Source: Selaginella tamariscina
Taxonomy: Eukaryota; Streptophyta; Lycopodiopsida; Selaginellales; Selaginellaceae
NCBI GenBank assembly: GCA_003024785.1
Contig: PUQB01000108.1
Span: 266,907 to 330,906, forward strand
Direction: 5' to 3'
Length of the DNA: 64,000 bases
The notes under the pieces are model-generated. The model was not told the DNA's origin. It made no database searches and saw nothing but the letters and a program-made list of their open reading frames with translations. Made by a program: the position numbers and the translations under genes. Positions 40,963 through 54,453 of the stretch are shown here, one piece after another (within the stretch, counting starts at the first letter, position 1; every line of letters starts with the position of its first letter).

Positions 40963-40989
40963 ATGCACGTTATAACTAAAATGGGCATG
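40963..40989. repeat. Left terminal inverted repeat of X-B
   Basis: It starts ATGCACGTTATAACTAAAAT and ends GGGCATG. The only difference from the right end is G versus C at position 21. Confidence 0.92.
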
Positions 40990-41372
40990 TTTATAGTCCC
41001 ATTTCTTAATAATTAGCAATTTTAGTTATTTAATTAACATTTTCTAATATTAAAGGAATATTCTTTAGAAAATATATGTTTAAAGAAAGAATATTCTTTA
41101 GAATATATGTTTAAAGATAGAAATTCTTTAGAATATTCTATTTTTTGTAATTGACTCTTTAATAAATTATAGCATTCATGGACAAAAATTAATAACATTA
41201 TAAAAGTAGAAGGTATTAAGTTATATAATATATTATATTTAAGATTATATGGCCTAATATAAAAATTAAAGAGCTACATTATATAATATTGATGTTATTT
41301 AAAATATTATAAATTAACATTAATTAAAAATTTAATATTATAATATATATATATATAATATATATATTATAT

Positions 41373-41423
<51 letters not shown>

Positions 41424-41544
41424 ATACAATCTTCCATATCTTTTTATAAATTTATATAGTTAAGTAAACAATTTGGTACTATTATTAAAGAGTTTATATA
41501 ATTATGAATATTAAATATATATATTTTATAATTTTGTAATTGCT
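40990..41544. other. AT-rich left sub-terminal region of X-B
   Basis: Very AT-rich, with repeated AGAATATTC-type motifs (41055-41140) and a long (TA)n run at 41340-41420. No gene. Confidence 0.7.
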
Positions 41545-49847: not shown

Positions 49848-52747
49848 ATGGGCAGGGGATTCTAGAATCAACTTGGCCATATTTAAAAATAAACAGGAGC
49901 GCATTGGATCAACCATGGTTGCTGTCAAACTAACCTCTGTCACATCGCATGGACAAGCAAAACAATGGAAACTAGATTCGCTAGTCAAGCACCCGAGGGT
50001 AGGTTACGAACCCAGATTGAATAATGTTCAACCTTGTTCCATCCAATGTTACATTCTCGGATCCAGAGGTCACCAGATACGACAAGAACCTTGGGTGGTT
50101 CTGTCGGCTTGTGGATAATGACGTTCACGTGTTTAATAATGATGTTAACTGTGGATTCTTCTTCAACTAAATGAAAGCCCATGTATGGAGGGATCCAATT
50201 AGATGTCTACTTCGAAGATCTTCATACTCATTGAGTAGGTGTATTCTCAACAGATATTGCTTCACAATACAGAAATCCACAAGTAGAGCAATTGTACCTC
50301 TTCTTATTAAAGAAGAACACAGCGACATCATTAGGGAGATTGAGAGGGTGGTTCAGACCCAGGTTCTTTACAGATCATGTTCAATTTGTTTAGAATCTTT
50401 GGGAGCTGGAAGAGTGTGCCAAGAACATTAGAAATAGCTGCAGTTGGGGCTCACACATGTTGATTCTGATTGCAGAAGAAAATCATATGTCGTGCACCTG
50501 TGGCATCCTATGTTACAATAAGCCACTAGGAAATGATGCTGGATAATAGGATTTACGAGTGTAGGGTTAGATGTAGCGTTAACCCAAACTTCAATTACAA
50601 GCCACTCAACCAGGAACGCGTAGCTGAGCTCATGGAGAAGATGAAGGATAACAATTCTTACAACCGTTTCAAATAATGCTGTTTTGTGCCCATACTATGA
50701 AAGAAAGAAAGGCACTGAGATAATGTGGGTGATAACACCAGAACAAATCATGAAGATCTAAACGGAGAATAAAAAATCAATTAGGTACTACATTATTAGT
50801 AGCCAACACACGATAACGGTAGCCCAATGACTTCTCGATGAACACATAAAGGAACGATGGCAACAAAACTTTTTGAACATACCCGTGAGAAGCTGACAAA
50901 AAGATTGGTGTTTTAGCTAAGCCAAATCTCATAACCGAGCAGTACCATAAGCTATCGCAGAATGAGACGTTGCTGATACCAACCATTGCAAATATGGGAG
51001 AAGTTCAAAACACGCGATCCATGTGAGAAATCTTGGGACCACAAAGAGCTACTACAGAGAGAGAACAATGTGCGGAATACTGGGTAAGAAATTGTTGTGG
51101 CGGGATTTATCTCGCTAGTATATTAATCTGTCTCTTTTTTATTCAAGAGCTGAAGAAATTGCAGTAGTTGATTTTGCCCAGGTGGGCGGGAAGGAAACAT
51201 CATTTTTATGATGTTGATTTCTGCCCCGAGGACAAGGTCTTTGCCAAATGGGTGGGGATTATGGAATCGTTCACAAAAGAACACTGAAGAAGAAGCAGAC
51301 AAGTGAAGGGGAGCCCTTCGGAAAAGTCTGCAAAGAAACCCAGTAAGACGCCGAAGGCTAAGTCTGTTCAATCTACAAAGGATGTAAAACGATTTCAAGC
51401 TCACATGGTTGAAGCCTTTAAATGGAACAACGATGGAGGAGATGGAAGTCTTGGCTGATTTGGTGATTGATGGCAAACTACAGATTAATAACAGCAGCCC
51501 CACCTCTCCTTTTCATCTCAAGGCAATGGAGTTGAAGACGGTCAGGCACTTCAAGGAGTGGTTGGGAATACACTGCCACAAACTGGGTTGGACCTCGGCT
51601 TCAACATACGAAGAGGTCAGCAAATATTTGCATGTGACAAACGATGATATGCTTGTCGAATGGGTGAATCAATCGGAAGATCTGGCAAGAATCTATTGCA
51701 CGCCAACGCCAAAAAGGAGAACATTGCGATGACGCCTTCTCTTATGGCAGTCCTTCAGCAGCGAGAACCGAGTTGAACCTTATAAAGGAGGATGCTACGA
51801 ATCACGACAAGCCCTACAGATGTTTGTTGTTGGATTCGAGACTTTATGGGGTAACATCACTGCTTGTAGGAAACCGTTTCAATTGTTCGTGATGGATCGG
51901 CGGGTGTCAAAAAATCCTTCGACAGATAGGGCACTAGAGGATTTGGTGGAGAAACTTAGCCGTGCAAGCATATATAGAAAGGTATTTATTATTGAATTCA
52001 TTTGCACTCTTCTGATACCTACGTTTTCAGGTATTTATTTCTTGATTTTGCTCATGTCACCGATACTTTTGCCTTCTTCGCCAAGAAGAATAACATCGTT
52101 GGACAGGATTTTATATGAAATGCTGATCCCAAGTGCATTGATACGGTTGTTCACTTGGTTGTTAGGAATGCGCCAAACAATTTCAAACTTCCAAATGACT
52201 GGCCAGGCATCTGTTTGCACTCCAACGGGCCTGAACCTCCATCCGATACACCGATAGCTGAGAGGACGTATTCGGCAATGTACGTTATCCAAACATTACA
52301 AGTCAAGGGGCACGGAGCATCGTCAACTTGATCAGGGGTCCTCACAGTGATGCATGGGTTTTTGACTACTGCACTAGGGGGTCCGTCTTGAAGGAGTGTT
52401 ACCTTCGGGATACATGTGTGTTTTGCCGTTGAAAAGGATAAGACCATGGTTGAGGACCTGAACAAGTGGATAGAGAGGTTCTCAACTGACTACCCCAACA
52501 AACCCATACAGGAGTATTTGGAAAGTTCCCTCCCAGAAGTGCGATAGCTCTTGAAGGAATCTGGTTCAATGTCGGAGTCTGAGACGAACTTCAATCAGAT
52601 ATTAGACCGGAAGTTATCTCGAGGAGTACAGAACATTCACACTCCATTACCATGGAAACATCAACAGAAGATACGGAAGATCATGAACATCTTCCAAGCG
52701 GCTAACCTTCGCCTCACTCAGAAGGTAATAGCGAAGAAGAATTGTTA
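49848..52747 (+). pseudogene. ParB-like / DNA amino-methyltransferase fusion gene (type 1), X-B copy
   Basis: The best N-terminus starts MRWAGDSRINLAIFKNK and reads VKLTSVTSHGQAKQWKLD. ParB-like parts follow: LNQERVAELMEKMKDNN (near 50608) and a decayed SQHTITVAQ segment (near 50800). The second half carries MELKTVRHFKEWLG, WTSASTYEEVSKYLHVTND, FQLFVMDRRVSKNPSTDRAL (motif IV position, 51865-51945), WPGIC, RDVFGNVRYPNIT, and motif I DYCTRGSVLKECYLRDTC (52364-52420). An exon of this copy ends LPEVR at 52547 and an acidic/basic tail follows in another frame. Introns are as in X-A (about 51085-51150 and 51981-52030). It sits 490 bases after palindrome array 2 and about 480 bases before the phosphatase gene. 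Frameshifts are numerous. Confidence 0.7.
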
Positions 52748-53229
52748 ATGAATTCTTAGAGTGACGAATAGTTGTAAATGAGTGTAACATAAGGCATTTT
52801 TGTATATTTCGTTTATATTTGTACAGAAAATAAATTCTCAAGGATTAATGAAGCTTTTAGTTCAAACATGGGTCACACATTAACAAGGTAAATAATATAC
52901 CTTGATAATTAAGGCAGCTAACTATCATTTTGCAGATGTAATGAAACAGTTGAGAACATGGATTTTCAGCATTGCCATGAGGTAAGAGAGGGGTTTGGCA
53001 AAAATTTCTTGTGCCACATGTCAGAATGACAGAGTTCATGCAGGAAATGGATAATAATGCAGCTCAAAACATCGTTACCATGGGGACCACTTCAGTTTTT
53101 TCATCATTTTTATTGCTTTCAGTTCCTAAATCACTTTCTTCAGCGCTGCAATATCTGAATCTTGTAAGGATGATGTACAATTAAATGATAAAGGGATAGG
53201 CAACAATATAACAGATAAATGTGAAAGGG

Positions 53230-53919
53230 ACAAACAAGTGAGTTGCAAAGCATTCAAGAGGCAACGCTACCCTGTTACCATGGCCATATTGTGTTGTTGG
53301 ATGTCAATGGTGTTTTGCTTCATCGACAAAGGCCCGAGGATAGAAAAAAAGAAATCAAACAAGGAGATTTCATTCCTTGTCATGGTAAATTTCGATATAT
53401 ATCATTTTTTGTCCAGGGTTGACTCTCTTTCAAAAGCTTAAGGAGATGGGTGCACTTGTGGGGATTTGGTCCTGCATGCAGATTCAACTTACACCGCTGT
53501 TGAATTTGCTTAAGAAACATTGTAGTGTTGCAGAAGAGGTGATTCGTAAAGATTGGATTTTTGACCAGCGAATATGTTATAAACCTCTCGAATTTCATAT
53601 AAGAAAGGAAAGCAAGCCATACTTCTTCAAGAATGAAAGATTAATTGGGCTTCATGGGAGATCAATCATTAAGGATAATGAAGAATGCACATATCTTAGT
53701 GGTAGACGACTCTCCTCAAAGGCTATGCTCAACCAAAACATTGCTTGTATTCATCCAATCACTTTCGACCATATTCTGATATATACCATGGATGAGCTAG
53801 TGAACTACTTGGATACGTGCCTCAGAAAGAAGAATCTCGAAAACTTTTGTGAGCAATATCCACCATATAAACATTTCCTGAAGCTTTTCTTTCTCGTGAT
53901 TTTGAATTTTATAAAATGA
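53230..53919 (+). pseudogene. HAD/FCP1-like phosphatase gene of family X, X-B copy
   Basis: The first motif reads CHGHIVLLDVNGVLLHR-like (53270-53320). After a shift near 53400 an open stretch to 53919 gives LFQKLKEMGALVGIWSCM, VIRKDWIFDQRICYKPLEF and FKNERLIGLHGRSI. It ends with NQNIACIHPITF and MDELVNYLDTCLRKKN, the layout of the C-terminal half of FCP1/NLI-type phosphatases. The stop at 53919 is the natural one by comparison with X-A. The first-motif aspartate is present as DVNG. This copy is longer than X-A by about 35 codons around 53665-53770. Function in the element is unknown; it is part of both copies, so it is not random capture. Confidence 0.65.
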
Positions 53920-54453
53920 AGGATAGCAACCGGGCGCTTTATAATATTATTCTTAAGGAACGTCATTTTTTAGATGAGCCTTTATGCAGACCTTTCTTAT
54001 CACATCTTATGTATTAACAAGGACAACTCCAATTGCATTCGTGAGAGTGTTAGTGGTGGCAACAACATCAAGATATTGACCAAAATGATTTGATTAATCC
54101 GGAGAGTGATGATTAGACAAAATGAGGAGATTTCTCTTATGGTTAAGGAGAAAGTATTTATAAATAATTAACATGTTGATAAGAAAATGATTTCATTTGT
54201 AATTATGTTTGATAGTATTTTTTAATTATTGTAAACTATTTTTAAATGAAGAATAATAAATATTCTAAGATATTTTAGGAATATTCCTTACTAAGTAAGG
54301 TTATTGAAGGATTAATTTTAATTAATTAATATTTAAGGCTTAATTATATATTAATTAATTAATTAATTAATAATTAAAACTTAAGTATTAATTAGCAATT
54401 TATTTTATATTCCCATTTTCATGTATCATGCCGATTTTAGTTATAACGTGCAT
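53920..54453. other. AT-rich right end and terminal repeat of X-B
   Basis: Non-coding AATTAATTAA-rich sequence, closing with the right terminal inverted repeat at 54427-54453. Confidence 0.8.

Follow-up and report, generated by a model that had tools for sequence, protein, structure and literature searches.

Why should a very large plant DNA transposon carry other genes besides that for its transposase, and on what might their products act? The question is raised by X-A, an element found in a 64,000-nucleotide stretch (the window) of Selaginella tamariscina contig PUQB01000108.1 (positions 266,907–330,906, forward strand). X-A (40963..54453; no strand assigned) encodes a DUF7869 transposase leftward and, rightward, a gene with putative ParB-like and methyltransferase segments (gene 1) followed by a NIF/FCP1-family gene; one array of palindromes stands before each of the two divergent genes. 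Our tentative answer, to which we give somewhat less than an even chance, is that X-A belongs to a family of DUF7869-driven cut-and-paste transposons in which the gene-1 protein binds the palindromes by both main genes and so marks the element to stay expressed.

Palindrome arrays and their conservation

Each copy contains two arrays of the 18-bp palindrome GGCGGGATTAATCCCGCC. In X-A, array 1 (44778..45382) comprises 13 sites with up to 5 mismatches and starts ~130 bp upstream of the transposase gene, and array 2 (48555..49351) comprises 19 such sites upstream of gene 1 (neither is assigned a strand). In X-B, another copy in the window, the site scan gave one array of 16 sites at 182-867 and one of 20 at 4200-5276. 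A single diverged palindrome with 3 mismatches (51099..51116, + strand) is found in an apparent intron of gene 1, as read from the sequence. Of the 73 sites in the window (again with up to 5 mismatches), 71 are inside X-A, X-B or a third copy, X2, and ten Markov simulations gave 0–2 per window. The assembly (300.7 Mb searched) contains 27,128 exact copies of the palindrome and 0 of a reversed control, and a scan of viral contigs gave one contig with one site.

Fifteen copies were fetched from the assembly (see below), and 11 of them have both arrays at the usual places; the exceptions are C438, with a 3-site remnant of array 2, C1082, which is rearranged, and C511 and C505b, with array 1 only. 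Ends and sites were compared on contig C1 over the first 100 places listed for each pattern. Exact sites start 3.4–3.8 kb inside each of the six element ends that both lists cover, and no exact site is located within 16 kb outside the ends in the 5 cases covered by the sites listed.

Sequence comparison shows that the palindromes are retained while the spacers between them turn over. Among 74 window sites, changes were counted in 13 of the 444 cells of the ATTAAT core, against 147 of the 888 arm cells. Between subfamilies, mismatches amounted to 83/1278 (6.5%) in the core, 254/1705 (14.9%) at non-CpG and 210/847 (24.8%) at CpG positions of the arms, and 1017/3125 (32.5%) at A/T and 953/3173 (30.0%) at G/C positions of the spacers; these figures come from 14 array comparisons that share copies and hence are non-independent, and the motif-anchored alignment inflates the contrast between core and spacer. 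In array 2 of C236 and X-B the CpG positions of the arms exceed the spacers (35% versus 22%). The ratio of observed to expected CpG is ~1.0–1.2 in young arrays, 0.84 and 0.57 in the X-A arrays and 0.4 in the transposase gene, which is weak evidence because the motif itself contains CpG.

A bounded element and its family

X-A is a real, exactly bounded cut-and-paste transposon with terminal inverted repeats, as its ends, a target site duplication of constant length and an empty site attest. The left repeat, ATGCACGTTATAACTAAAATGGGCATG, is at 40963..40989 (+) and its inverse at 54427..54453 (-), with 1 mismatch in 27; the end pattern recurs across the assembly. TTGT is duplicated on either side (40959..40962 and 54454..54457, both on the + strand). 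The left flank (40687-40962) matches 51515-51232, in reverse, at 86% and the right flank (54454-54699) matches 51235-51001, also in reverse, at 89%; in this paralogue (51001-51515), which is inside X-A itself, both flanks meet at ~51231 with a single TTGT, the empty site. The complete 13.5-kb transposon with exact limits described in an earlier note on this DNA is thus borne out.

The family's own gene 1 is the paralogue that supplies the empty site. Since the flanks of X-A are adjoining halves of a gene-1-like sequence, X-A has jumped into gene 1 of the family copy X2, in the opposite orientation. X2 gene 1 was traced by sequence comparison on the - strand: its first part at 62641..64000, a continuation in the right flank of X-A (54457..54699, sharing the last base of the TTGT repeat) and another in the left flank (40687..40962). 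X2 is broken a second time, by an insertion at 54700-62640 flanked by AAGTTCAAA/AAGTTTAAA. Copy X-B (1..10359, +) is truncated by the window start, and its right end is the base matching 54453 of X-A.

A pattern of 25 bases from the ends, with at most 1 mismatch, was found 1,656 times in forward and 1,598 times in reverse orientation in the assembly (3,254 in total; reversed control 0), which rules out X-A as an isolated relic and corresponds to ~1,600 elements, counting two ends for each. The transposase open reading frame (ORF) gave at least 41 matches of 96–100% identity, X-A counted (40 of 2,556 candidates scored). The 15 fetched copies were taken from these 41, a selection by similarity in the transposase from which deletion derivatives would drop out. 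Both ends are present in 7 of the 15, the standard ones being 14.3–15.1 kb long, and 4 of these 7 have perfect 4-bp duplications, all different (TAAT, CAAA, ATAT and AAGT), while C1082, C1171 and C493 are without one. Inverted ends with 4-bp duplications, which the earlier note had proposed to look for elsewhere, therefore do occur.

Gene 1 is carried by 12 of the 15 copies (partial and inverted in C1082) and the NIF gene by 10, which agrees with the earlier claim that the cargo belongs to the family. According to the same note, copies with the ends and without the cargo would speak against that claim: in the two-ended copies, a sample drawn by transposase similarity, gene 1 was found in 7 of 7 (only in part in C1082) and the NIF-family gene in 6 of 7. 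A second end was found in none of the three copies that are without gene 1 (C511, C505b and C438), and these therefore give no proof of a cargo-less class. Nine young copies are 95–99.9% identical in gene 1 (36 pairs, median 98.3%).

The DUF7869 transposase

The transposase gene (41600..44650, - strand, limits approximate, from Pfam and frames) has at least 2 exons, with a GT-AG intron at ~42678-42716 between DNCAGENKNR and YVLAYLSM; in X-A its C-terminal exon is disrupted by frameshifts. Judged by Pfam, its membership in DUF7869 (PF25273), already proposed in the earlier note, is certain: the ORF at 42716-44428 matches with E 1.8e-12 (47.7 bits) and a read-through with E 3.1e-37 (128.5 bits), for a curated cut-off of 26 bits. 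A predicted model of a homologue has an integrase-like core with an RNase-H-like fold. HDKMD is invariant in 40 of 40 aligned transposase sequences, and LDN and HTHxDID are present in the majority consensus only. From the model, the DUF7869 protein is predicted to be a DDE-type transposase, for which these motifs would hold candidate catalytic residues, and the DUF7869 core gains a predicted integrase-like fold. A scan of viral contigs for the transposase gave nothing useful, and a literature search for DUF7869 found no paper.

The first homologue modelled, P0001, is missing the end of the core and terminates exactly at the intron position of the window gene, which suggests that eukaryotic DUF7869 genes conserve this intron and were read here by a prokaryotic gene caller. 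In the model, its N-terminal residues 1-186 include two stretches rich in beta strands that resemble each other (strands 2-69 and 108-174) and, from the listed strands, are perhaps tandem SH3-like barrels. The transposase module (41463-44700) is near-identical in six compared family members and the remaining parts differ by ~6-20%; recent module exchange or gene conversion is the likely cause.

Gene 1 and the NIF-family gene

Gene 1 (49780..52770, +, limits approximate) is supported by its frames, which have many breaks in X-A, and by a ratio of nonsynonymous to synonymous change (dN/dS) below 1 between diverged copies. At the level of motifs, it has a ParB-like segment at ~50540-51080, which reads by eye NPNFNY...LNQERVAELMEKMK...YYIISGQHTITAAQ, and a methyltransferase-like C-terminal segment at ~52060-52540, which reads by eye as a permuted methyltransferase-like stretch, NAPNNF...VFDYCTRGSVLKEC...VFAVEKD. 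Young copies have open gene-1 frames of up to 395 amino acids. The gene was compared by hhalign with seven phage ParB-methyltransferases (of 10 loci retrieved, 3 were set aside because ParB and methylase are split or short in them). For the ParB half, 14 columns were aligned, covering the ParB motif (GxxR/H-A) only, and 1 of 60 column shuffles was as good; the methylase half was at chance (22/60), control stretches of gene 1 gave 25/60 and 4/60 against ParB and 50/60 and 7/60 against methylase, and the probability over the whole length was 0.4%. The ParB-like/methyltransferase label is thus a lead drawn from motifs. The fusion of ParB-like and DNA-methylase parts named in the earlier note stands as far as motifs readable by eye are concerned and falls short in library and profile support.

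The NIF/FCP1-family (phosphatase-like) gene (53280..54000, +, limits approximate) is broken in X-A. It matches PF03031 with E 1.4e-12 (48 bits, cut-off 21.8) in a read-through taken mainly from copy C468 and containing one X; X-A's own letters give a weak HAD hit only. FCP1-type phosphatases have the catalytic motif DxDx(T/V). The gene has DVNGV instead, with the second Asp changed to Asn, in X-A, in X-B and in all three young copies that were read, and so departs from the motif of an active FCP1-type enzyme; phosphatase activity of the NIF protein is therefore doubtful, and of the FCP1-like phosphatase of the earlier note it is the family that holds and the catalytic motif that does not.

Both genes are under purifying selection between diverged copies. 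For gene 1, dN/dS is 0.24-0.57 over eight diverged pairs; for the NIF gene it is 0.30-0.56 in 7 of 8 pairs (87-181 codons), the eighth (189 codons) having a dS of 0. Codons were used where their neighbourhood is at least 72% identical, excluding frame breaks (279-696 of 964 in the diverged pairs of gene 1), a choice that may favour conserved parts.

What might bind the palindromes

In the reading that we favour, the DUF7869 protein likely moves the element by cut-and-paste, and the gene-1 protein would occupy the palindromes beside the transposase gene and gene 1. Once bound, it would methylate DNA, perhaps at the adenines of ATTAAT, and the element DNA, so marked or opened, would stay expressed and escape silencing. 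For the NIF protein, the target may be a host factor of transcription or chromatin, a role conjectured purely from its family. A candidate DNA-binding protein together with arrays of a perfect palindrome before two divergent genes fits a self-directed system. In bacteria, VirB, a relative of ParB, relieves silencing. We regard as doubtful the parS-like form of self-marking, in which full copies have tens of palindromes before their two main genes and a ParB-like methyltransferase would bind and methylate more than 27,000 such sites, a selfish epigenetic code keeping ~1,600 elements transcribable.

Several observations weigh against a gene-1 protein that marks its own element. No significant match to gene 1 was found in Pfam, NCBIfam, PHROGs, PDB, two protein-database searches (limited to proteins 0.55-1.75 times as long as the query, a range that leaves single-exon fragments outside), a phage tblastn search or viral contigs; the best weak hits, below cut-off, are other families (DUF658, E 0.0034; T6PP, E 0.0088). 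DNA amino-methyltransferases usually have [DNS]PP[YFW] as motif IV; in the methylase half of gene 1, NAPN is seen by eye at the expected place instead, and catalysis may therefore be lost. The gene-1 and NIF frames are disrupted in X-A and X-B and are also broken in the young copies read, C704, C440 and C468. In comparisons of young copies with each other, dN/dS came to 0.95 and 0.46 for gene 1, with few changes, and to 0.60 and 0.97 for the NIF gene. A Foldseek search gave no match below E 0.001. As to the palindromes, the contrast between core and spacers is small in some array-1 pairs (X-B/C440: core 6.7%, spacers 12-13%), and core retention may come in part from recent array amplification, from the motif-anchored alignment and from lower A/T mutability. 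Conservation as hairpins was rejected, as compensatory half-site cells number 4 versus 7.3 in shuffles, with no coupling. On contig C1 only 9 of the 17 listed site clusters are within 11 kb inside a listed (exact) end; of the remaining 8, three pairs with the 3.4-3.8 kb spacing of the arrays account for six, and two stand alone. That the motif is host-wide and has nothing to do with the element was rejected on the 71 of 73 window sites and the 6 of 6 C1 ends, a rejection left incomplete by these 8 of 17 clusters. Gene 1 is a candidate for the binder of the palindromes, which could instead be the transposase or a host factor.

The last possibility, in which the transposase itself or a host factor binds the palindromes to serve excision or to control promoters, with some other role for gene 1, we consider unlikely. 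In CACTA/Spm elements a transposon protein binds short sites set in arrays; array 1 is next to the transposase gene, and C511 and C505b keep that array by the transposase gene in the absence of gene 1; however, the arrays are at least 3.4 kb from the ends, hence not subterminal, and the larger one precedes gene 1 and not the transposase gene. A specific host binder is suggested by the resemblance of the palindrome to paired E2F-type half-sites (GGCGGGA/TCCCGCC), one mismatch from the plant E2F consensus, through which host E2F would tie expression to S phase; Brassica transposons are said to have amplified E2F sites. In an E2F site one would look for conserved arms, whereas here the ATTAAT centre is conserved and the G/C arms are the most variable part (CpG decay could be a partial cause of the arm changes), and we find this explanation improbable.

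The arrays might also require no binding protein at all, being a minisatellite spread by slippage and unequal exchange, in which the identity of the sites reflects youth. Unit spacing (mostly 33-54 bp), variable copy number and the 95-99.9% likeness of the nine young copies in gene 1 are what such a process would leave, but the spacers diverge between arrays and subfamilies while the core stays, and 11 of the 15 fetched copies have both arrays in place upstream of the two genes; we judge a mere minisatellite to be quite unlikely. Least of all do we expect gene 1 and the NIF gene to be passengers captured from the host. NIF-family genes are ordinary eukaryotic genes, and X-A, X-B and the young copies read all have breaks in the cargo frames; against this very improbable explanation stand a dN/dS below 1 between diverged copies and the presence of the cargo in most fetched copies (12/15 and 10/15).

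Other features of the window

The insertion at 54700-62640, which interrupts gene 1 of X2, and the segment at 34395-40686 are two related elements, mutually inverted. The 9-bp AAGTTCAAA/AAGTTTAAA repeat and the frames suggest that the former is a Mutator-like element; the ORFs tested from the two had no Pfam match. Pieces of retrotransposons with RNase H, integrase, aspartyl protease and gag domains are present at 17516-19055 and 23646-25151.

Relation to known elements

Ectocarpus has a 21.5-kb Sola1 element, Sola1-1_Ec32, with a ParB-like and DNA methyltransferase gene on the strand opposite to the transposase (Dinatale et al. 2025, PMC12477816). Large ParB-methyltransferase elements were therefore known before X-A, and the statement of the earlier note that no described plant transposon has this gene set was overstated; the NIF gene was not found in the available part of that paper. 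As a DNA transposon, X-A shares with Sola1-1_Ec32 a very large size and a gene that lies on the other strand from the transposase (the ParB/methyltransferase likeness being at motif level only in X-A). Its family differs in size (13.5-15.1 kb versus 21.5 kb) and in having palindrome arrays and a NIF-family gene, neither of which was found in the available description of Sola1-1_Ec32 (PMC12477816). Sola elements produce 4-bp duplications (PMC10741241), as does the X-A family (TTGT, TAAT, CAAA, ATAT and AAGT), a comparison by duplication length alone. KDZ (Kyakuja-Dileera-Zisupton) elements differ in this trait, with duplications of 7-8 bp (PMC12730594) versus 4 bp here. ParB-methyltransferases also occur in transposons of green and red algae (Iyer 2011; Petroll 2025, as cited in PMC12477816); they are the same kind of accessory protein as the one putatively encoded by gene 1, with no shared sequence in the libraries used.

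VANC of Arabidopsis targets short motifs that stand in tandem repeats within noncoding regions of VANDAL elements, and these arrays turn over fast (PMC5735166). The X-A family is similar in combining an element-encoded protein with noncoding, quickly changing arrays of a short motif; VANDAL elements are of Mutator type, and the X-A motif is an 18-bp palindrome with a candidate binder, the likeness being one of arrangement. By analogy, VANC is the closest functional precedent and Sola1-1_Ec32 the closest structural one. Fungal DNA transposons bearing TET/JBP encode an enzyme that modifies DNA and whose supposed role is to counteract silencing (PMC12730594); the X-A family is alike in its putative modification-enzyme cargo, and the enzyme and the transposases differ.

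What appears to be new relative to published ParB-methyltransferase transposons is the palindrome arrays, absent from the earlier note too; no report of such arrays in these transposons was found in the open-licence literature. In the available text, the authors of PMC12477816 suggest that transposon-borne ParB-methyltransferases may bind and modify their own transposon, and name no target site. The X-A family supplies a concrete candidate target for such proteins, 27,128 exact palindromes that in the copies examined stand beside the two genes they would control and are retained while their spacers decay, and the idea that these elements may mark themselves therefore becomes directly testable.

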